A stretch of 37,921 nucleotides of DNA from Candidatus Coprenecus stercorigallinarum (lineage in GTDB: Bacteria; Bacteroidota; Bacteroidia; Bacteroidales; UBA932), in contig DVIL01000007.1 in NCBI GenBank assembly GCA_018711305.1, positions 1-37,921 on the forward strand, given 5' to 3'. Under the pieces are notes generated by a model that made no database searches, was not told where the DNA came from, and saw only the letters and a list, made by a program, of their open reading frames with translations. Positions 1,056 to 33,809 of the stretch are shown piece by piece. The translations under genes were made by a program, and so were the position numbers. The number at the start of each line of letters is the position of its first letter. The stretch's first letter is position 1.

Positions 1056-1056
1056 C

Positions 1057-1848: not shown

Positions 1849-1868
1849 TCACTAAATACATTATTACA

Positions 1869-2528: not shown

Positions 2529-2540
2529 TTTTACTGTACA

Positions 2541-3320
2541 ATGGAATACAATTTTCTCAGAATAGAGACTCCAGAGGAGGGTATCTGCATCCTGACGATA
2601 TCCCATCCCCAGTCGCTCAACTCCCTGAGCCGCCCTGTACTGGAGGAGATGTACCGCTTCGTGACGGACATTCCCGAAGGTACCGCCGTGCTGATAATCC
2701 GCGGGAACGGCCCGAAGTCTTTCGTGGCCGGCGCCGACATTTCCCAGATGGCGGGATTCGACGCAGAGCAGGGACTGGACTTCGGCCGTTTCGGAGCCGA
2801 GGTATTCCGCAGGATAGAGGAGCTGCCTTTCCCGGTGATTGCCGCCGTGAACGGGTATGCCCTCGGAGGAGGATGCGAACTGGCCATGGCCTGCGACATC
2901 CGCATTGCCTCTGCCAAGGCCAAGTTCGGGCAGCCGGAAGTGAAGCTCGGCATTATCCCCGGATTTTCCGGTACCTACCGCCTTCCCAAATTGGTGGGAC
3001 AGGGCTATGCCAAGGAGATGATATACTCCGGAAGGGTGATTGATGCTGCCGAGGCCCTGCGCATCGGACTGGTCAATCACGTATTGCCCCCGGAGGAACT
3101 GATGGACTATGTCCTGGGCCTGGCCCGCGACATCCGTGCCAACGCTCCGATAGCGGTACGCAAGGCGAAGGCCTGCATCAACTCCTGCTACGACATGGAC
3201 GAGACCACGGCCCTGGCCGCCGAGAACCGGGCATTTTCCGAGTGCTTTGCCACAGAGGACCAGAAGACCGGTATGCAGGCATTCCTCGGCAAGACTGCTC
3301 CTGTATTCAGGAACAAGTAG
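2541..3320 (+). CDS. crt: Enoyl-CoA hydratase (crotonase)
   Basis: This crotonase-fold protein of 259 residues should interconvert 3-hydroxybutyryl-CoA and crotonyl-CoA. The oxyanion-hole motif AGADI is at 63-67 and GGG at 109-111. Both catalytic glutamates are present: E113 in GGGCE and E133 in GQPEVKLG. The length and the position between a CoA-transferase and hbd fit a short-chain crotonase. In the direct lysine route crotonyl-CoA arises from 3-aminobutyryl-CoA deamination, so Crt and Hbd would serve to recycle acetoacetyl-CoA into the same butyryl-CoA pool. Confidence 0.94.
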   Translation: MEYNFLRIETPEEGICILTISHPQSLNSLSRPVLEEMYRFVTDIPEGTAVLIIRGNGPKSFVAGADISQMAGFDAEQGLDFGRFGAEVFRRIEELPFPVIAAVNGYALGGGCELAMACDIRIASAKAKFGQPEVKLGIIPGFSGTYRLPKLVGQGYAKEMIYSGRVIDAAEALRIGLVNHVLPPEELMDYVLGLARDIRANAPIAVRKAKACINSCYDMDETTALAAENRAFSECFATEDQKTGMQAFLGKTAPVFRNK

Positions 3321-3357
3321 AGATGACACAATATAGAAAGATAAAACACAAACTGTT

Positions 3358-4206
3358 ATGACAATAGATAAAATATCCGTAATCGGCACCGGAACCATGG
3401 GTTCCGGTATCGTACAGGCTCTGGCTCAGGCCGGCCGGAAAGTGACCATGAAGAGCCGCAGCGAGGCTTCCAACACCAAGGCCATGGGCCGTATCACCAA
3501 ATCCCTCGGCAAGCTCGTCGAGAAAGGCAAGATGGAGCAGGCCGCCATGGACGCTGCTCTGGCGAATATCACCGTTACCACCGACTATAAGGACATCGCC
3601 GATTCCGACCTGATCATAGAGGCCGCAGTCGAGGAGATGGACCTGAAGATAGAGCTCTTCAAGATGCTGGACGGCATCTGCAAACCTGAGACGATCATTG
3701 CCACCAACACCTCTTCGCTCTCGATCACCGGTATTGCGGCGGCAATCTCAAGGCCCTGCCATGTAATCGGCATGCACTTCTTCAACCCCGCCACCGTGAT
3801 GAAACTCGTGGAGATCATAAAGGGGCAGCGTACATCCCAGGAGGTGTTCGACGCCGTTTTCGCTCTCTGCCAGGAGATAGGCAAGACTCCCGTGGCCGTT
3901 AACGAGGCTCCCGGTTTCGTAGTGAACCGTATCCTCATTCCGATGGTCAATGAGGCCGTGGGCATCCTCGCTGACGGAGTGGCTTCCCGCGATGACATAG
4001 ACGCGGCGATGAAGCTCGGTGCCAATCATCCTATGGGACCTCTCGCCCTGGCCGACCTTATCGGTCTGGACGTATGCCTGGCCATCATGGAGGTACTGCA
4101 CCGCGAGTTCGGAGACGACAAGTACCGTCCTCACCCTCTGCTGAGGAAGATGGTGCGTGCCGGACTGCTCGGAAGAAAGACAGGAGAAGGATTTTACAAG
4201 TATTAA
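3358..4206 (+). CDS. hbd: 3-hydroxybutyryl-CoA dehydrogenase
   Basis: This 282-residue protein has a Rossmann NAD(P)-binding domain (GTGTMGSG, residues 10-17) followed by the helical C-terminal domain. The catalytic histidine is H140 in GMHFFNP and its glutamate partner is E152 in LVEII; NTSS at 117-120 is the family substrate-site motif. It should reduce acetoacetyl-CoA to 3-hydroxybutyryl-CoA. At the end of beta-strand 2, where NAD-dependent clostridial Hbd has an aspartate (LRD), this protein reads KSR (residues 32-34), a change usually linked to NADP(H) preference. The gene lies 37 bases after crt and 18 before bcd. Confidence 0.95.
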   Translation: MTIDKISVIGTGTMGSGIVQALAQAGRKVTMKSRSEASNTKAMGRITKSLGKLVEKGKMEQAAMDAALANITVTTDYKDIADSDLIIEAAVEEMDLKIELFKMLDGICKPETIIATNTSSLSITGIAAAISRPCHVIGMHFFNPATVMKLVEIIKGQRTSQEVFDAVFALCQEIGKTPVAVNEAPGFVVNRILIPMVNEAVGILADGVASRDDIDAAMKLGANHPMGPLALADLIGLDVCLAIMEVLHREFGDDKYRPHPLLRKMVRAGLLGRKTGEGFYKY

Positions 4207-4224
4207 TTTAAAGCATTGTAGAAA

Positions 4225-5367
4225 ATGAATTTCAAACTCACACCGACACAGTCGCTTTTCAGGCAGATGATCCGGGAATTCGCGGAAAAGGAAGTGAAGC
4301 CCCTGGCAGCCGAGATCGACGAACAGGAGAGATTCCCCATAGAGACGGTCCAGAAGATGGCTCCGCTCGGACTCTTCGGCATACCCCTCCCCGTTGAATA
4401 CGGCGGGGCAGGCGGGGACAACATCATGTACACCATCGCAGTGGAGGAACTTTCGAGGGTATGCGCCACGACAGGAGTCGTGCTTTCCGCACATACCTCC
4501 CTCTGCCTTGCACCTATATTCGAGCACGGCACCGAGGAGCAGAAGCGCAAGTATCTGCCCAGACTGGCTTCCGGCGAATGGCTCGGAGCCTTCGGTCTGA
4601 CCGAACCAAATGCGGGTACAGACGCCTCGGCACAGCAGACCACCGCAGTCCTCGACGGGGACGAGTGGGTACTGAACGGCAACAAGATTTTCATCACAAA
4701 TGCCGGCCATGCCCATGTCTACGTGATATTTGCAATGACTGACAAATCCTTGAAGAACAAGGGTATTTCCGCCTTTATCGTAGAGGAAGGCACCCCTGGT
4801 TTCGAGGTAGGCAAGAAGGAGCTGAAGCTCGGTATCAGGGGCTCCGCCACCGCCGAGCTTATCTTCTCCGACTGCCGTATACCCAAGGCCAATCTTCTCG
4901 GCAAGGTGGGAGGGGGCTTCGCGATAGCCATGAAGACCCTCGACGGAGGCCGCATAGGTATCGCCTCGCAGGCCCTTGGAATAGCCCAGGGAGCTCTCGA
5001 CGAGACCGTCAAGTACACCATGGAACGCAAGCAGTTCGGCAAGTCCATCTCCCAGTTCCAGAACACCCAGTTCCAGATGGCCGACCTGAAGACCAAGGTC
5101 GAGGCATCCCGTCTGCTCGTCCGCTCCGCAGCCTTCAAGAAGGACTGCAAGGAGCCTTATTCGGCCGATGCCGCCATGGCCAAGCTGTTCGCTGCAGAGA
5201 CCGCCATGGAAGTGACCACCAAGGCAGTGCAGTTCCACGGAGGCTACGGCTACACCCGCGAGTATCCCGTGGAGAGGATGATGCGCGATGCCAAGATCAC
5301 CGAGATCTACGAGGGTACATCTGAGGTACAGAGAATGGTGATAGCAGCCAGTATGTTTAAAAAGTAA
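4225..5367 (+). CDS. bcd: Butyryl-CoA (short-chain acyl-CoA) dehydrogenase
   Basis: This FAD acyl-CoA dehydrogenase of 380 residues, the usual length for the short-chain class, carries the flavin signature LTEPNAGTDAS near 129-139. The C-terminal IYEGTSEVQR holds the catalytic base at about E363, the position used by short-chain and butyryl-CoA dehydrogenases. Followed directly by etfB and etfA, it should act as crotonyl-CoA reductase. In many anaerobes this Bcd-EtfAB set bifurcates electrons from NADH to crotonyl-CoA and ferredoxin, but the sequence alone does not prove bifurcation here. Confidence 0.95.
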   Translation: MNFKLTPTQSLFRQMIREFAEKEVKPLAAEIDEQERFPIETVQKMAPLGLFGIPLPVEYGGAGGDNIMYTIAVEELSRVCATTGVVLSAHTSLCLAPIFEHGTEEQKRKYLPRLASGEWLGAFGLTEPNAGTDASAQQTTAVLDGDEWVLNGNKIFITNAGHAHVYVIFAMTDKSLKNKGISAFIVEEGTPGFEVGKKELKLGIRGSATAELIFSDCRIPKANLLGKVGGGFAIAMKTLDGGRIGIASQALGIAQGALDETVKYTMERKQFGKSISQFQNTQFQMADLKTKVEASRLLVRSAAFKKDCKEPYSADAAMAKLFAAETAMEVTTKAVQFHGGYGYTREYPVERMMRDAKITEIYEGTSEVQRMVIAASMFKK

Positions 5368-5379
5368 AATCAGGAAAGT

Positions 5380-6165
5380 ATGAATATAGTAGTTTGTATC
5401 AAGCAGGTACCCGATACCACCGAGATAAAGATCAATCCTGTTACCGGAACCCTCATCAGGGATGGAGTGCCCAGCATCATGAACCCCGACGACAAGGGCG
5501 GACTCGAAATGGCTCTGCGTCTGAAAGACAAGTACGGGGCCCATGTCACGGTCATCACCATGGGACCTCCTCAGGCGGACCTGATCCTCAGGGAAGCCTA
5601 CGCTATGGGTGTGGACAGGGCGATACTCCTGACCGACAGGAAATTCGCCGGAGCCGACACTCTCGCTACATCCAATGCTCTTGCCGGGGCCCTCAGGACT
5701 CTGGAATGGGATCTGGTAATTACCGGCCGTCAGGCCATCGACGGAGATACCGCCCAGGTGGGTCCCCAGATTGCCGAGCACCTGGACGTGCCTCAGGTAT
5801 CGTATGTATGCGACCTGGAGGTGGAGAAAGGAGGCAAGACCCTGCGTGTCAATAAGGAGACCGAAGAGGGAATGCAGATTCTCGAGGCTCAGATGCCCTG
5901 TCTGCTGACAGTACTGTCGTCTGCCGTGAAGCCGAGGTACATGAGTGCTCCCGGCATCGTCCAGGCGTACAATAAGCAGGTAGAGGTATGGGGGGCGGAC
6001 AAGATCGATGTGGACGAAAGCAAGCTCGGTCTGAAAGGCTCTCCGACCAAGGTGCTGAAGGCCTTCACAAAGGGTCTGAAAGCTCCGGGAGAGATATTCG
6101 AGGTGGACGCAGAGGAGGCTGTAGGCCTGATAGTTTCCCGCCTCAAGGAAAAATTCATCATATAG
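5380..6165 (+). CDS. etfB: Electron transfer flavoprotein beta subunit
   Basis: This 261-residue protein has the EtfB start VVCIKQVPDT, followed by NPDDKGGLEMALRLK and the loop GRQAIDGDTAQVGPQIAE (about residues 111-128). In bifurcating Etfs the corresponding loop contacts the beta-subunit flavin, so a second FAD is plausible. It should dimerise with EtfA and pass electrons to Bcd. It lies 12 bases after bcd and 24 before etfA. A link to the membrane oxidoreductase at 24493-26304 is proposed in the findings. Confidence 0.95.
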   Translation: MNIVVCIKQVPDTTEIKINPVTGTLIRDGVPSIMNPDDKGGLEMALRLKDKYGAHVTVITMGPPQADLILREAYAMGVDRAILLTDRKFAGADTLATSNALAGALRTLEWDLVITGRQAIDGDTAQVGPQIAEHLDVPQVSYVCDLEVEKGGKTLRVNKETEEGMQILEAQMPCLLTVLSSAVKPRYMSAPGIVQAYNKQVEVWGADKIDVDESKLGLKGSPTKVLKAFTKGLKAPGEIFEVDAEEAVGLIVSRLKEKFII

Positions 6166-6189
6166 TAACACCGTAATACATCATAGATT

Positions 6190-7197
6190 ATGATCAACAA
6201 GAACGACTATAAGAACGTATATGTGTTCGCAGAACAGAGAGGCGGTGTTATCCAGCCTGTCGCACTGGAGCTTATAGGCAAGGCCCGAGACCTTGCGGAA
6301 GCACTGGGAGAGAAGGTGGTTGCCATCCTGGCCGGCTACAATGTGGAAGGGCTCATCCCCACACTTTTCGAGTATGGCGCCGATGAGGTAGTGGTCACCG
6401 ACCATATAGAACTCAAGGACTACCTGACTGAGCAGTATGCCCAGTCCGTATATCAGATCATCACAGCCATGCGGCCCAACATAGTGCTTTTCGGAGCCAC
6501 GACCATCGGCCGTGACCTTGCTCCCAGGCTCTCCGCCCGCCTGTCAACAGGACTTACCGCGGACTGCACTAAGCTGGAGATATCGGAGGACAAGCAGCTG
6601 ATGATGACCCGTCCGGCCTTCGGAGGCAATCTGATGGCCACCATCATGTGTACCGAGCACCGTCCCCAGATGTCCACGGTACGTCCGGGTGTGATGCCCA
6701 AGCGTGACCCCGAGCCCGGCCGTACAGGCTCAATCGTCCGTTTCGAGACCAAGTTTGACCACTCCAAGATCAGGGTCCGCCTCATCGAGGAGGTGCGTGA
6801 GGAGAAGAACAAGGTGGATATCACCGAGGCCAAGATCCTCGTCTCCGGCGGCCGCGGAGTAGGCTGCAAGGAGGGTTTCGCAAAGCTGCAGGAACTGGCC
6901 GACGTACTCGGAGCGGAGGTGTCCGCATCCAGGGCAATGGTCGATGCAGGCATCATGCCGCATGACCGTCAGGTGGGCCAGACCGGCAAGACCGTCCGCC
7001 CCGATCTCTATCTCGCTCTCGGTATATCCGGAGCCATCCAGCATCTGGCAGGAATGGAGGAGTCCGGCTATATCGTAGCCGTGAACAAAGACAAGTTCGC
7101 GCCCATCTTCAATGTTTCGGATATCGGTATAGTAGGGGATGTGAACAAGATAGTTCCCCTGCTGGCCGAGAGACTCAAAAAAGAGATGCAGAAATGA
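6190..7197 (+). CDS. etfA: Electron transfer flavoprotein alpha subunit
   Basis: EtfA of 335 residues has an N-terminal domain that pairs with EtfB and a C-terminal FAD domain. The FAD-binding sequence is complete: VSGGRGVG near 218-225, SASRAMVDAG, QVGQTGKTVRPDLYLALGIS and the GAIQH that follows. Its stop codon overlaps the start of the serpin gene as ATGA, so translation of the two is probably coupled. It is the last metabolic gene of the operon. Confidence 0.95.
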   Translation: MINKNDYKNVYVFAEQRGGVIQPVALELIGKARDLAEALGEKVVAILAGYNVEGLIPTLFEYGADEVVVTDHIELKDYLTEQYAQSVYQIITAMRPNIVLFGATTIGRDLAPRLSARLSTGLTADCTKLEISEDKQLMMTRPAFGGNLMATIMCTEHRPQMSTVRPGVMPKRDPEPGRTGSIVRFETKFDHSKIRVRLIEEVREEKNKVDITEAKILVSGGRGVGCKEGFAKLQELADVLGAEVSASRAMVDAGIMPHDRQVGQTGKTVRPDLYLALGISGAIQHLAGMEESGYIVAVNKDKFAPIFNVSDIGIVGDVNKIVPLLAERLKKEMQK

Positions 7198-20703: not shown

Positions 20704-20712
20704 GCAAAGATA
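20704..20712 (-). promoter_or_regulatory. -7 box for the SMR gene
   Basis: The minus strand reads TATCTTTGC, a perfect TAnnTTTGC match 31 bases before the ATG. Confidence 0.65.
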
Positions 20713-22497: not shown

Positions 22498-23139
22498 TCA
22501 GTCCACAAACTGAATCTTCGAGGCATCGCGGTCCTTGGCTGCAGGACTCTCGGCCGGATAACCGAATCCGATGCAGTAGAGCAGTTCATAGCCCTCGGAG
22601 AAGCCCAGACGTTTCAGATAATCAGCGGCCTCGGGCGATTTCATGAACCTTACAGGTCCGCCCAGGCAGCAGGAGCCGATGCCCATGGACCAGGCCGAGA
22701 GGATCATGTTCTCTCCGAGCAGGCCGCAGTCGATGGCCGACATGTCGTATGACGGATCATGGGCGATGAACACCACTGTGGGCGCATTGCGGAACATGTT
22801 CTTGAAGGAAGGATCCTCGGCGGCATGGGGATTGGACTTGACGTAGAGTTCTGTAAGGCCGTTGATGAACTCGGGGGAGTCCACCACGCGGATTTCCCAC
22901 GACTGGCGGTTCATGCCGTTCGGGGCGTTGATGCCGCACTCGAGTATCGTCTTCATGGTGTCGCGGCCCACGGCGGCGGGCTGATACTGACGCACGCTAC
23001 GGCGGGTCATAATGGTCTCGATCACAATGTCGGATGCACTCTTGGCGGAAGTTGTGCCCTCACTCCCGGCACCGCTCCCGCAGGAACTCAGGACTGCCGC
23101 GCACATCAGGGCAGCGGCGGATATCTTAAAAAGTCTCAT
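22498..23139 (-). CDS. Nitroreductase-family protein with lipoprotein signal
   Basis: This 213-residue protein starts with a lipoprotein signal (lipobox LSSC, cysteine at 20) and a short serine/glycine-rich linker. The nitroreductase fold follows: TIMTRRSVRQYQP for FMN phosphate binding, INAPNGMNRQSWEIRVV, and the later GIGSCCLGGPV and LLYCIGFGYP. Most nitroreductases are cytoplasmic, so membrane anchoring on the periplasmic side is notable. It sits 33 bases after cysteate synthase. Confidence 0.88.
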   Translation of the reverse strand: MRLFKISAAALMCAAVLSSCGSGAGSEGTTSAKSASDIVIETIMTRRSVRQYQPAAVGRDTMKTILECGINAPNGMNRQSWEIRVVDSPEFINGLTELYVKSNPHAAEDPSFKNMFRNAPTVVFIAHDPSYDMSAIDCGLLGENMILSAWSMGIGSCCLGGPVRFMKSPEAADYLKRLGFSEGYELLYCIGFGYPAESPAAKDRDASKIQFVD

Positions 23140-23172: not shown

Positions 23173-24465
23173 CTATGCAAACAGCCCTTCTATCTCCCGG
23201 ATAATCTTCTCCCGGTCCTCCGAAGGGGAGATGACCAGCGAGGGCTTGAGCATGTGTACCTTGCAGTCTTTCTTGAAATGGAGCTCCCCACCGCCTGTGA
23301 TATTGAGCATTATCACATCGTCACGGCCTACGGTGCCGGCATTGGAGGCCTGCACCAGACCGGCCAGGGCGGCTCCTGAGGCGGAATAGATATCCACACC
23401 TTCCAGTTCCTTGAACATGGCCGTGCAATGGCGGATTTCGGCATTCGTCACGGCATACATCTCTCCTTGGGTATCTTTCATGCAGTCGTACACGCCTCCG
23501 GCAATGGAGTATGGCGGTTTGCGGTTGGACAGTACCTTTGCATCTATCATAGCCGCTTTCTGACGCGCATCGTCGTCATCGAAAGGCAGCAGGTCTCTCT
23601 GTCCGGCCTTCCAGGCATCGAACATAGGCACGAAGGGGATGTTCTGCACCGTATGGAGCTTCATCCGGGCAGAACCGAAACGTCCGTCCTCAAGCAGCCT
23701 CAGATTGGCCTCATGGGCAGCTATGGCACCGGTTCCGCTTCCTATCGCCTGGAAATATGCATCGGGAATACGGCCTATCTCCACAGTGGCCGAAAGCACT
23801 GTAGTACCCATACCGTCGCGGCGGGCCACATTCTTGGCACCTCCCTCGTCGATGAACATTCCGGAGCTGCATGCGATCTGCGAGAGGGCGATGGCGTCGA
23901 AATAGTCGCTGCCGGCCGGAGCGCAGACGAGCTTCACGCAGTCCTTGATCGGTTTCTCGAACCAGAGGGCATCGATATTGTCGTGAGGGACGCAGAGCAG
24001 CAGGGGAATATCGTTTTCTGAGCATACTTTGGCGAATGCGCGGGCAGTGTTTCCGGCAGAAGCGACAGTGAGTATCTGCTTGCAGTCTCCCGGCAGGCGT
24101 CCGCATACGGAGTAGGCTTCTGTCTCCTTGAAGGAACAGGTCTTCATCAGAGCTCCACGTTCGGGCCAGTATCCGGAGAAAGTTATGTAGAGATTGCCAA
24201 GCCCCAGTTCTCTGGCCAGGCCTTCACTCCTGTATGTCACTGTTGTAGCCGAATCACGAAGCAGCCGGTGTACAGGCAGCCAGTCGGCAAAACGATAGAA
24301 ACCCCAGTCGCTGCCCTTGACATCTATCTGTTTCTTCTGGTACACGGTGCGGACCAGGGAGGGCATACCTGATTCAGGATCCGCCAGCATCCAGCCTTTA
24401 TCCTGAAATATCCGCCCTGTAGCCACGTTCATCAGTGAGTACACTGTTGGAGTAAAACTTTTCAT
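23173..24465 (-). CDS. Cysteate synthase (PLP-dependent, threonine synthase paralogue)
   Basis: This 430-residue fold-type II PLP enzyme closely resembles the Methanosarcina cysteate synthase, which replaces the phosphate of O-phosphoserine with sulfite. The shared stretch includes SEGLARELGLGNLYITF, GYWPERGALMKTCSFKE with the PLP lysine at K113, SAGNTARAFA and GGAKNVARRDGMGT. In Bacteroidetes such as Alistipes, cysteate is the head-group precursor of sulfonolipids (capnine, sulfobacin); a coenzyme M role is not expected. True threonine synthase is the alternative but lacks these stretches. It lies 27 bases after the membrane oxidoreductase. Confidence 0.88.
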   Translation of the reverse strand: MKSFTPTVYSLMNVATGRIFQDKGWMLADPESGMPSLVRTVYQKKQIDVKGSDWGFYRFADWLPVHRLLRDSATTVTYRSEGLARELGLGNLYITFSGYWPERGALMKTCSFKETEAYSVCGRLPGDCKQILTVASAGNTARAFAKVCSENDIPLLLCVPHDNIDALWFEKPIKDCVKLVCAPAGSDYFDAIALSQIACSSGMFIDEGGAKNVARRDGMGTTVLSATVEIGRIPDAYFQAIGSGTGAIAAHEANLRLLEDGRFGSARMKLHTVQNIPFVPMFDAWKAGQRDLLPFDDDDARQKAAMIDAKVLSNRKPPYSIAGGVYDCMKDTQGEMYAVTNAEIRHCTAMFKELEGVDIYSASGAALAGLVQASNAGTVGRDDVIMLNITGGGELHFKKDCKVHMLKPSLVISPSEDREKIIREIEGLFA

Positions 24466-24492: not shown

Positions 24493-26304
24493 TCAATTCA
24501 TGTTGTTGGCCACGACTTCGGCAAAGTCGCTTACTTTTCTCGGGGCATAAGGTGAGAAGGTCTTCAGGCACAGGGGACAGGCGGTGACAATCCTTTCGGG
24601 GGAGGCGTACATCAGATTGTCCAGAGCCTTCATGGTAATGTCCTTTCTGTCATCGTAGGAGAGGGTCAGACTGCCCAACGAACCTCCGCAGCAGATACTC
24701 TCATCGTGATGTTTTCCGGCCTCCACGAGTTCTCCCGCCGCACTCAGTACGGTACGGGGCTGCCGGTACACTCCGCATCCGCGTCCAAGTTCACAGGGGT
24801 CATGATATACAAGCTTCTCTCCTGAATTACGGAGACTTATTCTGCCTGACCTCATGAGTTCATCGAAGTACTCGGTATAATGCACTACGCGTATTCCCTT
24901 GAGATCGTAGTTCTCGCGGAATACCTTGTAGCATATCGGACAGGACAGCAGGAGGATTTTGGCCCCGCTTTCACGGATAAGCTCTGAATTGCGCTTTATC
25001 ATCTCATTTGCCTGGGCTTCTCTTCCAGCAAGTATCAGTGGCCGTCCACAGCAGATACCGCCGTTACGGTCCATGAAAGTAAAATCCACACCGGCACGGT
25101 CAAGGACAGTGGTCACGGCATTGGATATGACAGGGGTAAGTTGCGTCATGCAGCCGGCATAGTACAGAATCCTGTCCTGTGAGGATTCCCCTCCTTCTGG
25201 CAGGCTGTAAGTGGAGAAATAGCTGTAATCCACCTTTGCCGGAACAGCCCTTTGCCCTCTCAGACTGCGTTTGATGTTGCAAGAGTCGACCCCGACGGGG
25301 CATACCGCCACGCACTTGCCGCACATCAGGCATTTGTCCGCGCTCTCCTCGCAGCGGGCCCAGTTGCGGCGGCGCAGCAGACGGTTGAAATACACCGTAG
25401 CGTAGCGCAGGTTCTTCTTCTGTCCCATCATCGGACATGCGTCAATGCACATTCCGCAGTTGGAGCATGAGTATATCTGGGCGATGGAGTAGCCTTTGCG
25501 GGGATGGGAGACTTTGATGCCGGCATTGCGCAGGACTATCAGGAAGGCCTCCGTAGGGATGTGCATGTACCGGGTGAAAGGCAGCAGCACGAAGAAGGTG
25601 CCGAGGAGGGTAGAGTAGGCCCACCAGGTCGGCAGGATGTGGTAGGTATTGGTCAGGAAGTTGCTGAAGAGCCAATACATAGGGCGGGTGAGGAAACTTC
25701 CTCCGGCTATACCGGCGGTGAAGCTCTCGGCCAGCAGCCTGACTGGGAAAATGGCCCACAGGCAGTACATGGCCAGGCGGTCCGGCAGCTGGTTGCGGGT
25801 GGTCCTGCGCATTCCGAAAATCATCGAGCGGATGCGCTTGAACATGGCCAGGAACACGCCGCTGAGCACTACCAGCAGGAAAAAGTCCATCAGGAAGAAG
25901 AAGAACGATCCTTTGAGGGTATGGTCCGTCTCCATCACGAAGAACCTGAAGAACACGGGGTAGTAGAAGGTCGAAAGACGGTCAGGCACGAAGAGCCAGG
26001 TCTCGATATGACCCAGCACTATCAGCATGAACCATCCGAAGGCGATGCTGGAGTGCATGTAGCCCAACAGCGGCTTGCGTTTCCATATCTTGGTGTGCAG
26101 GAGGACGTCGCAGATGATGTCCTTGAGGTTTATTACCCATAATTTGGGGTTGATCAGGGAGATGAAGAACTTCTTTCTGTCCGCTGCGGGAAGCTGTATT
26201 ATGACCCGTATTATCCCTATCACCAGATAGATGAGTATGAAACTCATGCCTATCACAAATGGGAGGACGAAATCGTTGTATCCTGATATGAACCTGTCTT
26301 TCAC
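24493..26304 (-). CDS. Membrane FeS oxidoreductase: NarI-like, 4Fe-4S, two CCG domains (HdrED/EMO type)
   Basis: This 603-residue protein has five predicted membrane helices (about 13-36, 83-104, 132-155, 178-200, 226-246) with candidate heme ligands H84, H99 and H248. Two 4Fe-4S motifs follow (C280/283/286/290 and C325/328/331/335), then two complete CCG domains: C385, C418-C419, C455, C458 and C504, C538-C539, C576, C579. The same layout is found in HdrE-HdrD and DsrM-DsrK pairs when fused and in EtfAB:menaquinone oxidoreductases (EMO). It should move electrons between a soluble partner and the quinone pool. Its ATG overlaps the stop of the upstream ferredoxin-type gene. Confidence 0.88.
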   Translation of the reverse strand: MKDRFISGYNDFVLPFVIGMSFILIYLVIGIIRVIIQLPAADRKKFFISLINPKLWVINLKDIICDVLLHTKIWKRKPLLGYMHSSIAFGWFMLIVLGHIETWLFVPDRLSTFYYPVFFRFFVMETDHTLKGSFFFFLMDFFLLVVLSGVFLAMFKRIRSMIFGMRRTTRNQLPDRLAMYCLWAIFPVRLLAESFTAGIAGGSFLTRPMYWLFSNFLTNTYHILPTWWAYSTLLGTFFVLLPFTRYMHIPTEAFLIVLRNAGIKVSHPRKGYSIAQIYSCSNCGMCIDACPMMGQKKNLRYATVYFNRLLRRRNWARCEESADKCLMCGKCVAVCPVGVDSCNIKRSLRGQRAVPAKVDYSYFSTYSLPEGGESSQDRILYYAGCMTQLTPVISNAVTTVLDRAGVDFTFMDRNGGICCGRPLILAGREAQANEMIKRNSELIRESGAKILLLSCPICYKVFRENYDLKGIRVVHYTEYFDELMRSGRISLRNSGEKLVYHDPCELGRGCGVYRQPRTVLSAAGELVEAGKHHDESICCGGSLGSLTLSYDDRKDITMKALDNLMYASPERIVTACPLCLKTFSPYAPRKVSDFAEVVANNMN

Positions 26305-26630
26305 TTCTTTTGGTAGATTTTAGTTACACTTAGTATCAGATGTCTGGTATTGATGCCGCGGGGGCAGACAATCAGACACTTGCCGCATAGCATGCAATGG
26401 GATATCATTCCGAGTGCTTCGTCTTCACGTCCCCGGCCGAGCAGCAGGATTACCTTGCGCAGATTCATGCCACTGTGTCCGGCAGTAGGGCAGGAGGCGG
26501 CACAAGAGCCGCATGCCATGCACTTCAGCACGTCCGGCTCCTCGCGGGCAAGCTCCTCGAACCTGGTCCTGTCGAACTTGTCCAGATTGATGGCGGAACT
26601 GGGTGATATGCCGTATCCGAAGTCTATCAT
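26301..26630 (-). CDS. Small HdrC-like 2x[4Fe-4S] protein
   Basis: This 109-residue protein carries two CxxCxxCxxxCP motifs (C37/40/43/47 and C79/82/85/89), the arrangement of HdrC, a heterodisulfide-reductase electron carrier. It overlaps both neighbours by four bases (ATGA): hdrA-like upstream and the membrane oxidoreductase downstream. That suggests fixed stoichiometry and a role as wire between the flavoprotein and the membrane subunit. Confidence 0.9.
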   Translation of the reverse strand: MIDFGYGISPSSAINLDKFDRTRFEELAREEPDVLKCMACGSCAASCPTAGHSGMNLRKVILLLGRGREDEALGMISHCMLCGKCLIVCPRGINTRHLILSVTKIYQKK

Positions 26631-27652
26631 TGTTCCTGCAGGTATTCGTGAATACTGGTAGCGGCGGCCCTGGCCTCGGCTATGGTCTCAGGCAGTGTCT
26701 TGGGACCGGTGCATGCCCCGGCGTAGAATACTCCCGTGCAGTAGGACGCCTGCGCAGCTGTGAGAGAGTCCTTCGGCTTGAGGAAACCGTCCTCCATGGT
26801 AGAGAGCGCGAGGGTGCGCGCTATAGGATCCACAGCCCTGTTGTGGGACATTCCGGCCATGAGGACCAGCAGGTCCAGGGTCACTCTGAGCGGCTTGCCG
26901 GAGAGCGTGTCCTCCGCCTTGACGAAGAGGTGGCCGTCCTTGTCCTCGGAGACTTCCGAGACACGGCCCCTGACGAAGATCACGCCGTATTTCTTCTGCG
27001 CTTCGAGATACATGTCCTCGTATCCGCGTCCGAACATACGGAGGTCCATATAGAAACAGTATACTACAGCATCCGGGAACTGCTGCTTGATCTCGCAGGC
27101 CTGCTTGACGGCCGTGGCGCAGCATACCTTGGAGCAGTAGCGGTTGCCCACCTTCTCGTCACGGGAGCCCACGCAGTGTACGAATCCTATGCGGCGCGGA
27201 TTGTCTACAGCCGGGACGGGAATTCCTGAGAAATAATCTTCCAGGTCGGCGTTTGTTATCACCTTGTCGTATATGCCGTAGCCGTATTCTTCCTTCTTCG
27301 ATGCGTTGAACAGGGAAAAGCCGGTGGTCAGCAGCAGGGCGTCTGCCAGGACTGAAAGTCCGTTGGAGAGGATGATGTTGTAGCCGCGCTCGAGCTTATT
27401 GACCTGAGTTACTTCGGTGGAGGTAAACCACTTGACCCTGCCCATAGAGGCTGTCATCTGTCCCAGGACGTCTTCCGCAGGAGTTCCGTATGGAAAGAGG
27501 CGGTCCCAGCGGCCGAGATGTCCGCCCAGGCGATTCTCTCTCTCGATCAGGAAAACCGTATATCCGAGGGCATCCAAGGCTTTGGAAGCCTCTATTCCGG
27601 CCGGTCCTCCGCCGATTATCACTACATTTCTCTGTTGATTGGTCAGTTCCAT
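26627..27652 (-). CDS. HdrA/QmoA-like FAD flavoprotein, short form
   Basis: This 341-residue protein opens with the FAD dinucleotide motif VVIIGGGPAGIEAS (10-23). It has the HdrA cluster motif in HCVGSRDEKVGNRYCSKVCC (C160, C173, C177, C178). It ends with the second FAD segment TGVFYAGACTGPKTLPET. Classical HdrA is about 650 residues or more and has extra ferredoxin domains; these are missing, so the protein is closer to QmoA in size. In HdrABC and Qmo complexes this subunit holds the flavin that splits or relays electrons. It lies 20 bases after the hdrB-like gene. Confidence 0.88.
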   Translation of the reverse strand: MELTNQQRNVVIIGGGPAGIEASKALDALGYTVFLIERENRLGGHLGRWDRLFPYGTPAEDVLGQMTASMGRVKWFTSTEVTQVNKLERGYNIILSNGLSVLADALLLTTGFSLFNASKKEEYGYGIYDKVITNADLEDYFSGIPVPAVDNPRRIGFVHCVGSRDEKVGNRYCSKVCCATAVKQACEIKQQFPDAVVYCFYMDLRMFGRGYEDMYLEAQKKYGVIFVRGRVSEVSEDKDGHLFVKAEDTLSGKPLRVTLDLLVLMAGMSHNRAVDPIARTLALSTMEDGFLKPKDSLTAAQASYCTGVFYAGACTGPKTLPETIAEARAAATSIHEYLQEQ

Positions 27653-27672
27653 ATATTGTCGGTGTATGAGGC

Positions 27673-28746
27673 TTAGAATATTCTGATGTTGGCAGGGCTG
27701 GCTGGGATTCCGAGGTCCTTGCCGCCCACACCCTTGTATTTACGGGACTTATCGTACTGCACTCCCATCTTGTCCAGCAGCGGCTCCACGGCCACCTGAT
27801 GCATCTGCAGACCGAGGTCCCAAGGGTCGTAGCCCATGACCAGTGCGGCCACTTCTTCGGACGAGAGTACCGGTATGCCGTAGCCGGGCGTATCTCCGTA
27901 GGTCTTTCCGGTGGTCTCTGCGATGACATACTGCCAGCGGTCCAGGAAGTAGTTGCAGCCCGGGCAGTTGGTGATGATCAGGTCGGGGTGGAACGGTTCC
28001 ATGGACTCGAACTTCTTGTAGGTATTGGTCAGGGAATAGCCTCTGTTGGCCTTGACCAGATACTGCCGGAAACCGAAGCCGCAGCAGTGTCTGCGTTCCG
28101 GGTAATCCACCACGCTGCCTCCCAAGGCCTCTACAAGCCCGGCCAGGACACGTGGGTATTCGGCACCGCCCACAGACTTCGAGGGGAAGATCTTGGAGTA
28201 GTGGCAGCCGATGTGCTCGACCACTTTCAGAGGCTCCCCGGTATGCACGTTTATCAGCGGATACCGGGCCTGTTCCGATATCAGGAAGCGGTAGTGGTAC
28301 ATCATGTCGCTGGAGTGCATCAGGAAATCCGGCTTGACAAATTCGCGTCTGCAGGCCTTCCACAGCAGCTCATGTATCTTCTCCTCAATCTCCGGATGCT
28401 CCTCCCATGTCTGGAGAATCTCGGTATGCAGACCGAAGGAGGTGACGCAGGATACTACGAAATTCCTGTAGCCTGCCTGGTTCATCAGCGAGAACTGGCG
28501 GGCTATGATAGTCATCGACGTCTCTTCAGGCGTGGTGTCGCTGTGGTAGGCTATGCCTCCGCAGGTAGTGTGGAGCGGATCCTCGTAGAAATCCTTTCCG
28601 AAACGGTTGCGCACAATGTCCAGAAAGGCCTGCTCCGCACCCGGATTGAAGTTCTGGCGGATGCAGCTGCGGGCATAGAAATACCTGTCGTCAGGTATCT
28701 CCTTCTGGAATTCGGACCATATTCTTTTCTTTCCTTCGTAATTCAT
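27673..28746 (-). CDS. HdrB-like CCG-domain protein with degenerate first domain
   Basis: This 357-residue protein belongs to the HdrB family, whose two CCG domains bind noncubane 4Fe-4S clusters that cleave disulfides in methanogens. The second domain is complete: C181, C221-C222, C261 and C264 (NCPGC). The first has only C28, C62 and C100, with TCGG instead of CCG and SCVTS instead of CxxC. One of the two active-site clusters is therefore probably absent. The substrate is not a CoM-CoB disulfide in this organism; it is unknown. The gene lies six bases after the hdrC-like gene. Confidence 0.87.
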   Translation of the reverse strand: MNYEGKKRIWSEFQKEIPDDRYFYARSCIRQNFNPGAEQAFLDIVRNRFGKDFYEDPLHTTCGGIAYHSDTTPEETSMTIIARQFSLMNQAGYRNFVVSCVTSFGLHTEILQTWEEHPEIEEKIHELLWKACRREFVKPDFLMHSSDMMYHYRFLISEQARYPLINVHTGEPLKVVEHIGCHYSKIFPSKSVGGAEYPRVLAGLVEALGGSVVDYPERRHCCGFGFRQYLVKANRGYSLTNTYKKFESMEPFHPDLIITNCPGCNYFLDRWQYVIAETTGKTYGDTPGYGIPVLSSEEVAALVMGYDPWDLGLQMHQVAVEPLLDKMGVQYDKSRKYKGVGGKDLGIPASPANIRIF

Positions 28747-28752
28747 GCAATA

Positions 28753-29457
28753 CTACTGATTCTGTTGGTTAAGGTGCTCACCGTGAGTCTCGTTGAACAC
28801 TTCGTTGAAATACTCTTCCTCGCTCAGGCCCATCTCTTCGGCCTTCTTGCGCGAGAGATCCTTGATCTTTTCTACCCTGGCCGAGCCGCCGGTCACGTCG
28901 AATATCTTCTGCAGGTCTTCGAGAGACTCAGGGGCTATCTTCCGCAGAGGGCCGGGGCCGCTCTTTCCGTAATTTGCGCCTACGCGGTCGTACACGTCCT
29001 GCAGGTGGTCCTCAATCCATTTGCCCACTGTCCCGTATTCGGGATGCGAGGCATACTTGAAGGTCTCGGGATGGACGCAGTAGCCGTAATTGAGGATATT
29101 GCCGCAGAGCACCTTGGCGAGGGCATACTGCTGCCGTCCCTTCTCCGACTCGACGAAATATCCGAGCTCTACGGATAGGGTGCGCAGGGCAATGATTACC
29201 TGCCCCGGAGCATTGGTCCTCGGACAGCGTGTCACGCAGGACATGCACTCGCCGCAGTACCATATCGTATCGCTCTTGAGCAGCTTGATGATCTCCTCGT
29301 CGTCCTGGGTCTGGACTATGTTGACGATGTTCTTGGGGTTGTAGCGGTAGAATTCGGCAGCAGGGCAGACCGCGGTACAGGTACCGCAGTTGATGCAGGC
29401 CTTCAGTCCTTCCTGGAGCCGGACGTCGCTCATCAGCCGTTCGTATATCTTACCCAT
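28753..29457 (-). CDS. HdrC-like iron-sulfur subunit
   Basis: This 234-residue protein has two 4Fe-4S motifs (C21/24/27/31 and C68/71/74/78) in the HdrC arrangement, followed by an alpha-helical tail of about 130 residues rich in charged residues. The start MGKIYERLMSDVRL at 29457 is one base after the carB stop; a longer frame into carB adds a low-quality sequence and is rejected. The tight spacing puts the Hdr-like genes in the carAB transcript. It should feed electrons between HdrA-like and HdrB-like subunits. Confidence 0.9.
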   Translation of the reverse strand: MGKIYERLMSDVRLQEGLKACINCGTCTAVCPAAEFYRYNPKNIVNIVQTQDDEEIIKLLKSDTIWYCGECMSCVTRCPRTNAPGQVIIALRTLSVELGYFVESEKGRQQYALAKVLCGNILNYGYCVHPETFKYASHPEYGTVGKWIEDHLQDVYDRVGANYGKSGPGPLRKIAPESLEDLQKIFDVTGGSARVEKIKDLSRKKAEEMGLSEEEYFNEVFNETHGEHLNQQNQ

Positions 29458-29458
29458 A

Positions 29459-32400
29459 CTATTTGTACTCGTCCCAGGACTTGATCTGTATGTTCTCGAG
29501 CGGCATGTTGCAGAATGCCGTGATGAAGGCCGATGCAAGCCGGGTATTGGTTATGATAGGTATGTTGAAGTCCACTGCGGCGCGGCGGATGCGGTAGCCG
29601 TTGTCCAGCTCCTCCTGGGTCAGGTTCTTGGGAATGTTTATCACCAGGTCTATCTTGCGTTCGTGGAGCATCTCCAGAGCCTGGGGATGCTGGTCCGGCT
29701 GTGAGGGCCAGTAGACAAGATTGGCCGGCACTCCGTTGTCCACCAGGAACTTGTAGCTGCCGCCCGTAGCGTATATCGAATAGTTGTTTTTGGCCAGCAA
29801 CTTGCAGGCGCCCAAGAGCTCGACCTTCTGCTTGGCGTCTCCGGACGAGATCAGGATGTTCCTGCCCGGCACGGTATAGCCGACTGAGAGCATGGCCTTG
29901 AGCACGGCCTCGTTGGTGTCGTCACCTATGCAGCCCACCTCTCCTGTAGAGGCCATGTCCACGCCGAGGACGGGGTCGGCCTTCTGCAGGCGGGAGAAGG
30001 AGAACTGCGAGGCTTTCACGCCCACGTAGTCCAGGTCGAAGGCACTCTTCTCGGGAGGAGTGACCTTTTCTCCGGTCATGACCTTGGTGGCAAGCTCGAT
30101 AAGGTTGATCTTAAGCACTTTCGACACGAAGGGGAAACTCCTCGAAGCCCTGAGGTTGCATTCGATGACCTTGATGTCGTTCTCCTTGGCCAGGAACTGT
30201 ATGTTGAACGGGCCGGAAATCTTCAGGGCCTCGGCAATCTTGCGGGCTATCTTCTTGATTCTGCGGGCTGTCTCCACGTACAGCTTCTGGGGAGGGAACT
30301 GTATCGTCGCATCGCCCGAGTGCACTCCTGCAAACTCTATGTGCTCCGAGATGGCATAGGCGATGACAGTACCGTGGTCGGCCACTGCATCAAACTCTAT
30401 CTCCTTGGCATGCTGGATGAATTCTGAGACCACAACAGGATGTTTCTTCGATACTTCCGCGGCTAATTTAAGGAACTGCTCGAGCTCGGTGTCATTGGAG
30501 CAGACGTTCATGGCCGCACCGGAAAGCACGTATGAGGGACGCACCAGGACTGGGAATCCCACATCGCGGATGAAGCTGTGGATGTCGTTCATCGAGGTCA
30601 GCTCCCTCCATCTGGGCTGGTCAATGCCGAGGCGGTCGAGCATGGCCGAGAAGCGGTTGCGGTCCTCGGCGTTGTCGATGCTGTCGGCGGTGGTGCCGAG
30701 GATGGGGACCTTGGCGGCATCCAGGCGGGTAGCCAGGTTGTTGGGAATCTGGCCGCCCATGGAGATGATCACTCCGTGCGGCTCCTCCAGGTCGCAGATA
30801 TCGAGCACCCTCTCGTAGGTCAGCTCGTCGAAGTAGAGGCGGTCGCACATATCGTAGTCAGTGGATACGGTCTCCGGGTTGTAGTTGATCATGACTCCGC
30901 GCCAGCCGCTCTTGCGGATGGTCTGCAGGGCATTGACGCTGCACCAGTCGAATTCCACGGAGCTGCCGATGCGGTAGGCCCCTGAACCGAGCACGACAAT
31001 CGACTTGCCGTCATGCTCATAGGCTATGTCAGATGCAGTACCGTTGTAGGTAAGATAGAGGTAGTTGGTCTGGGCCGGGAATTCGGCTGCGAGTGTGTCG
31101 ATCTGCTTTACGACAGGCAGCACCCCGAGCTTCTTGCGGTATTCGCGGACCTTGATTACCATCTCCTCGGAATCAATGCGGTCTTTCAGTATGTGGCGTC
31201 CGATCTGGAAATCGGAGAAACCCTGGCATTTGGCCTTGCGCAGCAGAGCCTTGTCCAGCTCCTCGAGGGAGTTCAGGGCCTTGAGCTCCGCCGCCGTGTT
31301 GATGATGTTCATCAGCTTGTCGATGAACCAGCGGTCTATCTTGGTGAGCTCGTGTATCTTCTCAGGGGTATAACCGTGGATAAGGGCTTTGGAAATGACG
31401 AAGATGCGGTTGTCGGTAGGCTCCCGCAGGGCCTTGTCGATATTCTCTATCGGTATTTCCTTATTGCCTGTGAAGCCGTGCGCTCCCTGGCCGATCATTC
31501 TCAGACCCTTCTGCAGGGCCTCCTCGAAGGTGCGTCCGATGGCCATGACCTCGCCGACGCTCTTCATGCTGCTGCCGATCTCGCGGGAGACTCCGTGGAA
31601 CTTGGAGAGGTCCCAGCGGGGAATCTTGCAGACCACGTAGTCCAGGGCGGGCTCGAAGAATGCCGGAGTGGTCTTGGTGATGGAGTTCTTCAGCTCGAAC
31701 AGGCCGTAGCCTAAGCCGAGCTTGGCGGCCACGAAGGCGAGGGGATAACCGGTCGCTTTCGATGCCAGTGCCGAGGAACGGCTCAGACGGGCGTTGACCT
31801 CGATGACGCGGTAGTCCTCGGAATTGGGGTCGAAGGCGAACTGCACGTTGCACTCGCCGACGATGCCCACGTGGCGGACGATTCTTATCGAAAGCTCGCG
31901 GAGCAGGTTGTACTCATGGTTGGTGAGGGTCTGCGAGGGAGCGACCACGATACTCTCGCCGGTATGGATGCCGAGCGGGTCGAAGTTCTCCATGTTGCAG
32001 ACCGTGATGCAGTTGTCGAAACGGTCGCGCACCACCTCGTACTCTATCTCCTTCCAGCCTTTGAGCGACTTCTCGACCAGTACTTGAGGTGAGTAGGAGA
32101 AGGCTTTCTCTCCCAACTTGATAAGTTCATCAGGATTGTCGCAGAATCCGCTGCCGAGACCGCCGAGAGCATAGGCGGCGCGGAGAATCACCGGATATCC
32201 GAGCTCGGAGGCTGCCGCGAGGGCGTCCTCGATGTTGTTCACGGCATGATTCTTGATCGACTTGACGTGAATCTCGTCGAGCTTCTTGACGAAGAGCTCG
32301 CGGTCCTCGGTGTCCATAATCGCCTGGACGGGTGTACCGAGCACCTTCAGTCCGTATTTTTCCAGGATGCCGTCACGGTAAAGGGCCACTCCGCAGTTCA

Positions 32401-32683
32401 GCGCGGTCTGTCCTCCGAATGCCAGGAGAATGCCCTGAGGCTGCTCCTTCTTGATAACTGCCTCAACGAAGAAGGGGGTTACCGGGAGAAAATATATCTT
32501 GTCGGCAATACCCTCCGATGTCTGGACAGTAGCGATATTAGGGTTGATCAGGACTGTCTCGATGCCTTCCTCGCGCATGGCCTTGAGAGCCTGGGAGCCG
32601 GAGTAGTCGAATTCGCCGGCTTCGCCGATTTTCAAAGCTCCGGAACCGAGGAGCAGGACTTTCTTTATACTGGTGTCGATCAT
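29459..32683 (-). CDS. carB: Carbamoyl-phosphate synthase large subunit
   Basis: This 1074-residue protein, full length for the family, makes carbamoyl phosphate for pyrimidine and arginine synthesis. Two homologous ATP-grasp halves are visible: the first starts KVLLLGSGALKIGEAGEFD and the second IVVLGSGAYRIGSSVEFDW near 560. The C-terminal allosteric domain (about 935-1074) begins after NILISSGDAKQK. It lies five bases after carA, and its stop is one base before the hdrC-like start. Confidence 0.97.
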   Translation of the reverse strand: MIDTSIKKVLLLGSGALKIGEAGEFDYSGSQALKAMREEGIETVLINPNIATVQTSEGIADKIYFLPVTPFFVEAVIKKEQPQGILLAFGGQTALNCGVALYRDGILEKYGLKVLGTPVQAIMDTEDRELFVKKLDEIHVKSIKNHAVNNIEDALAAASELGYPVILRAAYALGGLGSGFCDNPDELIKLGEKAFSYSPQVLVEKSLKGWKEIEYEVVRDRFDNCITVCNMENFDPLGIHTGESIVVAPSQTLTNHEYNLLRELSIRIVRHVGIVGECNVQFAFDPNSEDYRVIEVNARLSRSSALASKATGYPLAFVAAKLGLGYGLFELKNSITKTTPAFFEPALDYVVCKIPRWDLSKFHGVSREIGSSMKSVGEVMAIGRTFEEALQKGLRMIGQGAHGFTGNKEIPIENIDKALREPTDNRIFVISKALIHGYTPEKIHELTKIDRWFIDKLMNIINTAAELKALNSLEELDKALLRKAKCQGFSDFQIGRHILKDRIDSEEMVIKVREYRKKLGVLPVVKQIDTLAAEFPAQTNYLYLTYNGTASDIAYEHDGKSIVVLGSGAYRIGSSVEFDWCSVNALQTIRKSGWRGVMINYNPETVSTDYDMCDRLYFDELTYERVLDICDLEEPHGVIISMGGQIPNNLATRLDAAKVPILGTTADSIDNAEDRNRFSAMLDRLGIDQPRWRELTSMNDIHSFIRDVGFPVLVRPSYVLSGAAMNVCSNDTELEQFLKLAAEVSKKHPVVVSEFIQHAKEIEFDAVADHGTVIAYAISEHIEFAGVHSGDATIQFPPQKLYVETARRIKKIARKIAEALKISGPFNIQFLAKENDIKVIECNLRASRSFPFVSKVLKINLIELATKVMTGEKVTPPEKSAFDLDYVGVKASQFSFSRLQKADPVLGVDMASTGEVGCIGDDTNEAVLKAMLSVGYTVPGRNILISSGDAKQKVELLGACKLLAKNNYSIYATGGSYKFLVDNGVPANLVYWPSQPDQHPQALEMLHERKIDLVINIPKNLTQEELDNGYRIRRAAVDFNIPIITNTRLASAFITAFCNMPLENIQIKSWDEYK

Positions 32684-32688
32684 GATGT

Positions 32689-33759
32689 CTACAGCATTTT
32701 AATGAATTTGTCAAAGAGGAATTCGGTATCGGTAGGACCGCTGGAGGCCTCGGGGTGGAACTGTACCGAGAAGAAACGGCCGCTCTTGTGCCGCAGGCCC
32801 TCGTTGGTGCCGTCGTTCATGTTGATGAAGAGAGGGTCCCAGTCAGCGCCGAGAGTATCCCCGTCCACCGCATAGCCGTGGTTCTGGGAGGTGACGTAGC
32901 AACGGTCAGTGCCTACGAGGCGCACGGGCTGGTTGTGGCTGCGGTGGCCGTATTTGAGCTTGAAGGTAGATGCGCCTCCGGCCTTGGCCAGCAGCTGGTT
33001 GCCCATGCAGATGCCGAAAATCGGCTTCCCGGCGGCCATGGCGGCCTGAATGTGACGGACGGCCTCGCCGCAGTACTCGGGGTTACCGGGACCGTTGGAG
33101 ATGAACAGGCCGTTGTAGTCCATGGTATTGAAATCATAGTCCCAGGGTACGCGGATGACCTCGATGTCGCCGGAGCGGAGGAGGCAGCGGAGGATGTTGT
33201 TCTTGACTCCGCAGTCGAGCAGCACTACTTTCTTCCCCTCAGGGTTGCCGTAACGGATCACCTCCTTGCAGCTGACTATGGCCACCTGGTTTTCCGAGCC
33301 CGGGTCGTAAAGTGTCTCCGGTACCTCGAAACCTTCCGGCACGATGCAGCCGGGCATGGAGCCCTGTTCACGGAGAATCTTGGTGATCTCCCTCGTATCC
33401 ACTCCGAAGATGCCCGGGATGCGGTACTCCTTGAGCCATTCGTCCAGGCTCTTGACCGCGCTCCAGTGGCTGTACTTGAAGGAATAGTCGGAGATGATCA
33501 GGCCCCGGACGTGAATCCGGTCGGACTCGAAGTTGACGGAAATACCGTCGGCCGTCTTCTCTTCAGGAACTCCGTAGTTGCCTACAAGAGGGTAGGTTAC
33601 ACATAATATCTGACCCGAATAGGAGGGGTCGGTGAGGGACTCGGGATAGCCGACCATAGCGGTGTTGAATACCACCTCTCCGTCGGCACGGCCCTCATAG
33701 CCGAAGGAAAATCCTTTGACTGCAAAGTCTTTTCCGAGATGTAATACTGCTTCTTTCAT
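32689..33759 (-). CDS. carA: Carbamoyl-phosphate synthase small (glutaminase) subunit
   Basis: This 356-residue class I glutamine amidotransferase subunit supplies ammonia to CarB. The catalytic cysteine is in GICMGNQLLA and the His-Glu pair in VQFHPEASSGPTD. The start MKEAVLHLGKDFAVKGFSF at 33759 matches the family start; the 19 residues before it overlap the promoter. It is the first gene of the long minus-strand run and has a TAATTTTGC -7 box upstream (33770-33778). Confidence 0.96.
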   Translation of the reverse strand: MKEAVLHLGKDFAVKGFSFGYEGRADGEVVFNTAMVGYPESLTDPSYSGQILCVTYPLVGNYGVPEEKTADGISVNFESDRIHVRGLIISDYSFKYSHWSAVKSLDEWLKEYRIPGIFGVDTREITKILREQGSMPGCIVPEGFEVPETLYDPGSENQVAIVSCKEVIRYGNPEGKKVVLLDCGVKNNILRCLLRSGDIEVIRVPWDYDFNTMDYNGLFISNGPGNPEYCGEAVRHIQAAMAAGKPIFGICMGNQLLAKAGGASTFKLKYGHRSHNQPVRLVGTDRCYVTSQNHGYAVDGDTLGADWDPLFINMNDGTNEGLRHKSGRFFSVQFHPEASSGPTDTEFLFDKFIKML

Positions 33760-33769
33760 ATCTAAGAAT

Positions 33770-33809
33770 GCAAAATTAGAAAAATTTGCCGTTTCTGCCT
33801 TATCTTTGT
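33770..33809. promoter_or_regulatory. Divergent promoter region of carA and the NfeD-class protease
   Basis: The minus strand has TAATTTTGC at 33770-33778 for carA, and the plus strand TATCTTTGT at 33801-33809 for the protease. No well-spaced TTTG -33 box is obvious for either. The whole divergent gap is 68 bases. Confidence 0.6.

Follow-up and report, generated by a model that had tools for sequence, protein, structure and literature searches.

The described systems closest to the genes treated here include the sHdr gene sets, for which passages of PMC11582611 distinguish a type I, made up of C1-B1-A with hyp-C2-B2, from a type II, made up of C1-B1-A-H-B3 with etfAB, and propose that sHdr forms sulfite in the cytoplasm. 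A gene for the carrier LbpA accompanies the hdr genes in all 56 species covered in section 5 of PMC6067878. We analyzed a set of five genes, hdrC1-hdrB1-hdrA-hdrC2 plus a gene for a membrane subunit, on a 37,921-nt stretch of contig DVIL01000007.1 from Candidatus Coprenecus stercorigallinarum (Bacteroidales; UBA932), hereafter “the window”. The set is real and widespread, and among Hdr-like complexes it is a variant of unusual structure. Its genes are all encoded on the minus strand:

28753..29457, minus strand: hdrC1, 234 amino acids, two 4Fe-4S motifs; HdrC models score 65-83 bits, far below their cut-offs
27673..28746, minus strand: hdrB1, 357 amino acids, HdrB fold
26627..27652, minus strand: hdrA of the short type, 341 amino acids, flavin adenine dinucleotide (FAD) domain and one 4Fe-4S motif
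26301..26630, minus strand: hdrC2, 109 amino acids, two 4Fe-4S motifs
24493..26304, minus strand: membrane subunit, read from a GTG start codon, with NarI-like helices, two 4Fe-4S motifs and two CCG motifs, both complete

HdrB1 was found in 103 of 295 Bacteroidales genomes and in 71 of the 177 genera that they represent (threshold E≤1e-60). A phylum-wide sample (247 genomes including the window’s own; E≤1e-40) gave matches in only two of the 246 other genomes (G335 and G417, ~1e-47), and their loci, L180 and L181, are distant, type II-like sHdr clusters that include genes for GCV_H, a DsrE-like protein, Etf and an EMO-like protein. Gene order was read around 155 HdrB1 placements picked by the HdrB1 match only (151 of the 155 sequences are distinct), with the parts called by length and identity limits. 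Among the 136 placements with enough flanking sequence, the complete order hdrC1-hdrB1-hdrA-hdrC2-membrane is present in 116; nine others have one part missing, two are rearranged (L174 and L175, with the order C1-C2-membrane-B1-A) and seven are C1-B1 pairs alone, while L051 is without the membrane gene and L055 consists of B1-A only. The five-gene order is conserved beyond chance, and the prospect raised by the original prediction, that the genes of its proposed module might rarely be found together in relatives, is contradicted by these counts. The genes flanking the set differ from family to family, and the set therefore behaves as a unit. Outside the window’s family no conserved gene adjoins it in the clusters inspected, where neighbors were partly annotated and no search was aimed at sulfurtransferases. 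In one genome (G057; L179/L050), DsrE-like, FlpD/MvhD, two HdrA-like (916 and 657 amino acids) and HdrC-like genes lie immediately upstream of the set.

Separate hdrC1-hdrB1 pairs without hdrA occur at L046, L147, L194, L197, L198, L249, L252, L253 and L254. They adjoin Mrp/NBP35, Nitro_FeMo-Co or DUF134-like genes (at L147, cobO lies between the two genes), and those entered in the tree form one clade. HdrB1 matches with an in-frame TAA occur in G640, G650, G667 and G741, and one with an in-frame TGA in G140.

The predicted cofactor ligands are strongly conserved among relatives (at least 85% query coverage, identity floor 32-45%). All eight cysteines are invariant in HdrC1 (143/143, as is C127) and in HdrC2 (131/131), and the C160-x12-C173-x3-C177-C178 ligands of HdrA are invariant in 140/140. 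HdrA itself is short, lacks both the N-terminal domain and the ferredoxin domain found in methanogen HdrA, and matches 6tjr along its whole length (208 bits). In HdrB1, the C-terminal CCG motif (C181/C221-C222/C261xxC264) is complete in 151/151 relatives; its N-terminal CCG motif is short of two of the five cysteines in all 151 and instead reads C28 / [T/S]61-C62 / C100-x2-[S/T]103, with T61 and S103 in the window protein. The same modified pattern is present in sHdrB1 of L180 and L181, called sHdr from gene content only, and in HdrB1 of Picosynechococcus, whereas canonical HdrB (L199-L202) and Picosynechococcus HdrB2 have the pattern C..CC..CxxC. Three HdrB trees separate canonical from sHdrB1-like proteins with 100/100 support, on long branches, and leave the nearest relatives inside the modified group undecided. 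Judged by site pattern and trees, HdrB1 falls with sHdrB1 and away from canonical HdrB. The label “HdrB-like” given earlier is to be amended on this point, and the cysteine motifs listed earlier are borne out in HdrC1, HdrC2, HdrA and the membrane subunit, HdrB1 having only one complete CCG motif.

In the membrane subunit, two 4Fe-4S and two complete CCG motifs are present in 134/134 relatives, and the histidines H70, H84 and H248 in the membrane half, which bear on a putative b heme, are invariant in the same number. Its structural model is EtfD-like overall, NarI-like over residues 4-268 and HdrB-like over residues 377-603, and the subunit combines a NarI part and an EtfD/HdrD-like part on one chain. 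Because the anchor is of the NarI type, the set is probably quinone-linked, which supports the quinone connection in a gut Bacteroidales that had been proposed from the membrane NarI/CCG protein. The structure listings contained no QmoA or sHdrB structure, which excludes nothing.

The five genes are part of a longer run on the minus strand:

32689..33759, minus strand: carA, for the small subunit of carbamoyl-phosphate synthase; start codon placed by eye at ATG 33759, the list of open reading frames beginning at TTG 33816
29459..32683, minus strand: carB, for the large subunit of carbamoyl-phosphate synthase, upstream of hdrC1
23173..24465, minus strand: cysteate synthase gene (here capA), in the family of the window the final gene linked to the set; TIGR03844 477.5 bits, above the curated cut-off of 324.9
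22498..23139, minus strand: gene of the nitroreductase family, last in the run and possibly part of the same unit
33771..33778, minus strand: TAATTTTG, 11 bases before carA

The five genes had been described as head to tail, and their positions, the gaps of 6 and 20 bases and the two 4-base overlaps are as reported; the same-strand run is longer than was stated, reading carA-carB-hdrC1-hdrB1-hdrA-hdrC2-membrane-capA-nitroreductase with spacings of 5, 1, 6, 20, -4, -4, 27 and 33 bases. The TAATTTTG element resembles the Bacteroides -7 box, but is weak evidence because the window contains 16 matches to such a box against 10.3 expected. The next minus-strand match downstream is at 20705-20712, with none nearer, so carA through capA may be one transcript. 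No inverted repeats were found ahead of carA or of the cysteate synthase gene.

Cysteate synthase joins sulfite and O-phosphoserine to give cysteate, and its gene had been set aside in the original prediction. Within the window’s family, this neighbor is not incidental. In a sample of 218 family genomes (both searches at equal settings, their genomes taken as identical), HdrB1 is present in 129 and cysteate synthase in 164. The synthase occurs in 124/129 genomes with HdrB1 against 40/89 without it (odds ratio 30, p = 1.5e-18; all association p-values given here were computed ignoring kinship); five genomes have HdrB1 only, 40 the synthase only and 49 neither. Coordinates were listed for 109 of the 124 genomes with both and not for the other 15; in 69/109 the synthase gene follows on the same strand within 8 kb, and in 40/109 it is not adjacent. 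Among 80 named loci from the family, roughly half have the synthase gene following that of the membrane subunit. A sulA gene was not recognized beside cysteate synthase in 20 loci judged by cluster and length, with c2 and others only partly annotated.

The position ahead of cysteate synthase is variable in one genus of the family (g10), in which the locus was read in all 14 listed genomes with the synthase. In 13/14, the locus is bounded by carB on its upstream side and by a SulP gene on the other (G298 has neither in its stretch), and a MarR-type gene precedes the slot in 13/14 (G642 has no MarR match). The slot holds the full C1-B1-A-C2-membrane set in G027, G592, G601 and G649, and A-C2-membrane without C1-B1 in G298, G624, G638 and G646. 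All four genomes of the latter kind have a C1-B1 pair elsewhere, as do 3/4 of those with the full set, and we infer that the separate pair stands in for the one lost from the slot. An FNT-family channel (PF01226, 267 bits) fills the slot in G607, G613, G619, G629, G634 and G642, six genomes without any HdrB1 match, and would there stand in for the five-gene set. In other genera of the family, the synthase gene of genomes without HdrB1 often follows a MarR-type or Na/Ca-exchanger gene, and the channel swap is therefore not general. At the g10 loci L213 and L223-L227 the operon reads carB-(MarR)-FNT channel-cysteate synthase-SulP, and transport may there meet the need that the set would serve elsewhere.

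Taken together, we tentatively favor, at somewhat less than even probability, a menaquinone-linked sulfur-redox complex that was recruited in the window’s family to supply sulfite for cysteate. The products of the five genes would assemble in Bacteroidales into a single Hdr-like complex anchored in the membrane, in which HdrC1-HdrB1 form a cytoplasmic wing bearing the sHdrB1-type sulfur site. Electrons would pass from the sulfur substrate at HdrB1 to HdrC1, HdrA (FAD, 4Fe-4S) and HdrC2, and then through the HdrD-like and NarI parts of the fifth subunit to menaquinone. Because the set shares an operon with cysteate synthase in the window’s family, it would there most likely oxidize sulfane sulfur bound to a thiol or to a carrier, forming sulfite, which the synthase would use to give cysteate, the sulfonolipid precursor. 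The route from cysteate to sulfonolipids via SulA/CFAT is described for Alistipes and Chryseobacterium in parts of PMC9304779 and PMC11211663. This sulfite-for-cysteate role is the boldest reading of the data, supported within one family and unsupported beyond it. A fuller version, in which a lipoate-independent sHdr-like complex makes sulfite from sulfane sulfur for sulfonolipids with menaquinone as acceptor, and in which some close relatives swapped in a sulfite-importing channel, is unlikely as a whole. A literature search returned no report on the function of the set in these bacteria and no paper treating sulfonolipid, sulfite and cysteate together.

Several observations weigh against a sulfite-forming role. 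Across the order, cysteate synthase is found in 87/295 genomes (86 above the family cut-off) and is not associated with HdrB1 (36 genomes with both against 30.4 expected, odds ratio 1.49, p = 0.14), so that a general tie between the two is rejected, and 67/103 HdrB1 genomes are without the synthase; outside the window’s family, the set must have another use or a wider role in sulfur redox chemistry. Within the family, the 40 genomes that carry the synthase without HdrB1 (G645 probably being cut at a contig end) have the same bearing. The sHdr carrier LbpA is missing, and no GCV_H was detected in the window’s own genome (94% complete); among 30 HdrB1 genomes, G051 likewise has no GCV_H, and in the remaining 29 it is encoded on a different contig or no closer than 211 kb to HdrB1. 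The HdrA tree, which is unstable, its bootstrap not settled, places sHdrA of L180/L181 with full-length HdrA (95/96), apart from HdrA of the set. In genus g10, G646 has both A-C2-membrane and the FNT channel, and the channel protein is FocA-like (237 bits; NirC 111), so that sulfite import is a guess.

The absence of an order-wide association and the family genomes with the synthase alone would also fit mere neighborhood by descent, with one family having kept an ancestral operon whose parts are not functionally coupled, as would the inheritance of the surrounding genes (car, MarR, SulP) alongside. We regard this as somewhat unlikely, since HdrB1 and the synthase co-occur even where HdrB1 is not adjacent (the 40/109 genomes above, or 36 when four with A-C2-membrane adjoining are subtracted) and a second C1-B1 pair is present wherever the operon lost C1-B1 (4/4). 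A lipoate-independent respiratory complex that oxidizes another thiol or organosulfur compound, sulfite not being involved, would account for the many HdrB1 genomes without the synthase and for the missing LbpA, but leaves the family link and the slot swap unaccounted for, and its standing is similarly on the unlikely side. Operation in the reducing direction would resemble that of HdrDE, with menaquinol or another donor reducing a disulfide or persulfide where the membrane subunit has its pair of CCG motifs. It draws on the completeness of both motifs and on the single CCG match given by the EMO-like protein encoded in L181, an sHdr cluster. Neither the sHdrB1-type site nor the link to cysteate synthase calls for reduction, however, and no candidate disulfide was found; we consider this direction quite unlikely.

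A further alternative, which we judge improbable, is that the set is a menaquinone electron entry for acyl-CoA/lysine-butyrate metabolism, its EtfD-like subunit being fed by EtfAB and the Hdr-like subunits adding a second donor or acceptor. The membrane subunit is structurally closest to EtfD, and parts of PMC3582634 assign an EtfAB:quinone role to a DUF224 protein of Syntrophomonas wolfei. The window carries lysine-5,6-aminomutase, CoA-transferase, butyrate and etf genes at 81-7197, and the suggestion made earlier that the set might track such genes is upheld to a modest degree. Order-wide, HdrB1 occurs in 24/43 genomes with the aminomutase (15.0 expected, odds ratio 2.8, p = 0.003) and in 22/37 with butyrate-type EtfB (>330 bits; odds ratio 3.2, p = 0.0014). 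In G021 (L044), a convergent EtfA gene lies 0.45 kb past cysteate synthase; in G027 and G298, thiolase, CoA-transferase and aminomutase genes lie within ~10 kb, and in these three genomes, as in the window, such genes are close to the set; and thiolase/CoA-transferase genes lie near cysteate synthase in L203 and, by eye, in L045. Conversely, 79 of the 103 HdrB1 genomes are without the aminomutase and 35 are without an EtfB match, EtfB of any kind shows no association with HdrB1 (68/182 genomes, p = 0.31), by which a general EtfAB tie is rejected, no etf gene lies between carA and the nitroreductase gene, and the sHdrB1-type site is left unexplained. The lysine-butyrate run is closed by a serpin gene (window:7194-8375, plus strand; PF00079, E 5e-101) with a 4-base overlap with the end of etfA.

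If the sulfite-supplying role proposed for the window’s family is correct, the set would be a sulfite source for the sulfonolipids of gut Bacteroidales, lipids tied to host inflammation in the literature, and an instance of anaerobic sHdr sulfur chemistry working without lipoate.

Among known systems, one of the closest to the set is sHdr type II (shdrC1B1AHB3 with etfAB and LbpA), with which it shares the C1-B1-A core and the N-terminal site of HdrB1; the clusters L180/L181 also hold an EtfD/EMO-like membrane protein. The set differs in having no LbpA, EtfAB or B3 in its operon, in the small C2 and membrane subunit directly after HdrA, and in HdrB1 retaining C261, which is absent from HdrB1 of L180/L181. 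With neither hyp-C2-B2 nor B3 and etfAB, no LbpA and an HdrA that groups apart, a true sHdr label is rejected. The HdrABC and QmoABC complexes, named in the original prediction as users of such parts, do not fit as labels either. Methanogen HdrABC has a homologous HdrC, HdrB and HdrA core, but HdrA of the set is not full-length, its HdrB1 has one complete CCG motif, and the NCBIfam cut-offs are missed by far. QmoABC shares FAD-containing HdrA-like and NarI-type parts; the five-gene set differs by the presence of HdrB and a single HdrA, and the qmoC model scores 49.9 bits against a cut-off of 300. The domain set of the membrane subunit would be like that of HdrE-HdrD in methanogen HdrDE. It also has, on one chain, the NarI-like helices, two 4Fe-4S motifs and CCG domains of the EtfD/EMO (DUF224) EtfAB:menaquinone oxidoreductases, although its operon partners are HdrC1-B1-A-C2 and not EtfAB. 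The hdrC-B-A-C-B-FAD cluster on a plasmid of Picosynechococcus sp. PCC 7003 has the same first four gene types (HdrB1 40% and HdrA 44% identical), with a canonical second HdrB and another flavoprotein in place of the membrane subunit and no cysteate synthase listed in its 25-kb stretch. Even without the sulfite step, a third of the sampled Bacteroidales have a five-subunit Hdr-like set in which an sHdrB1-type wing is combined with an EtfD-like membrane arm.

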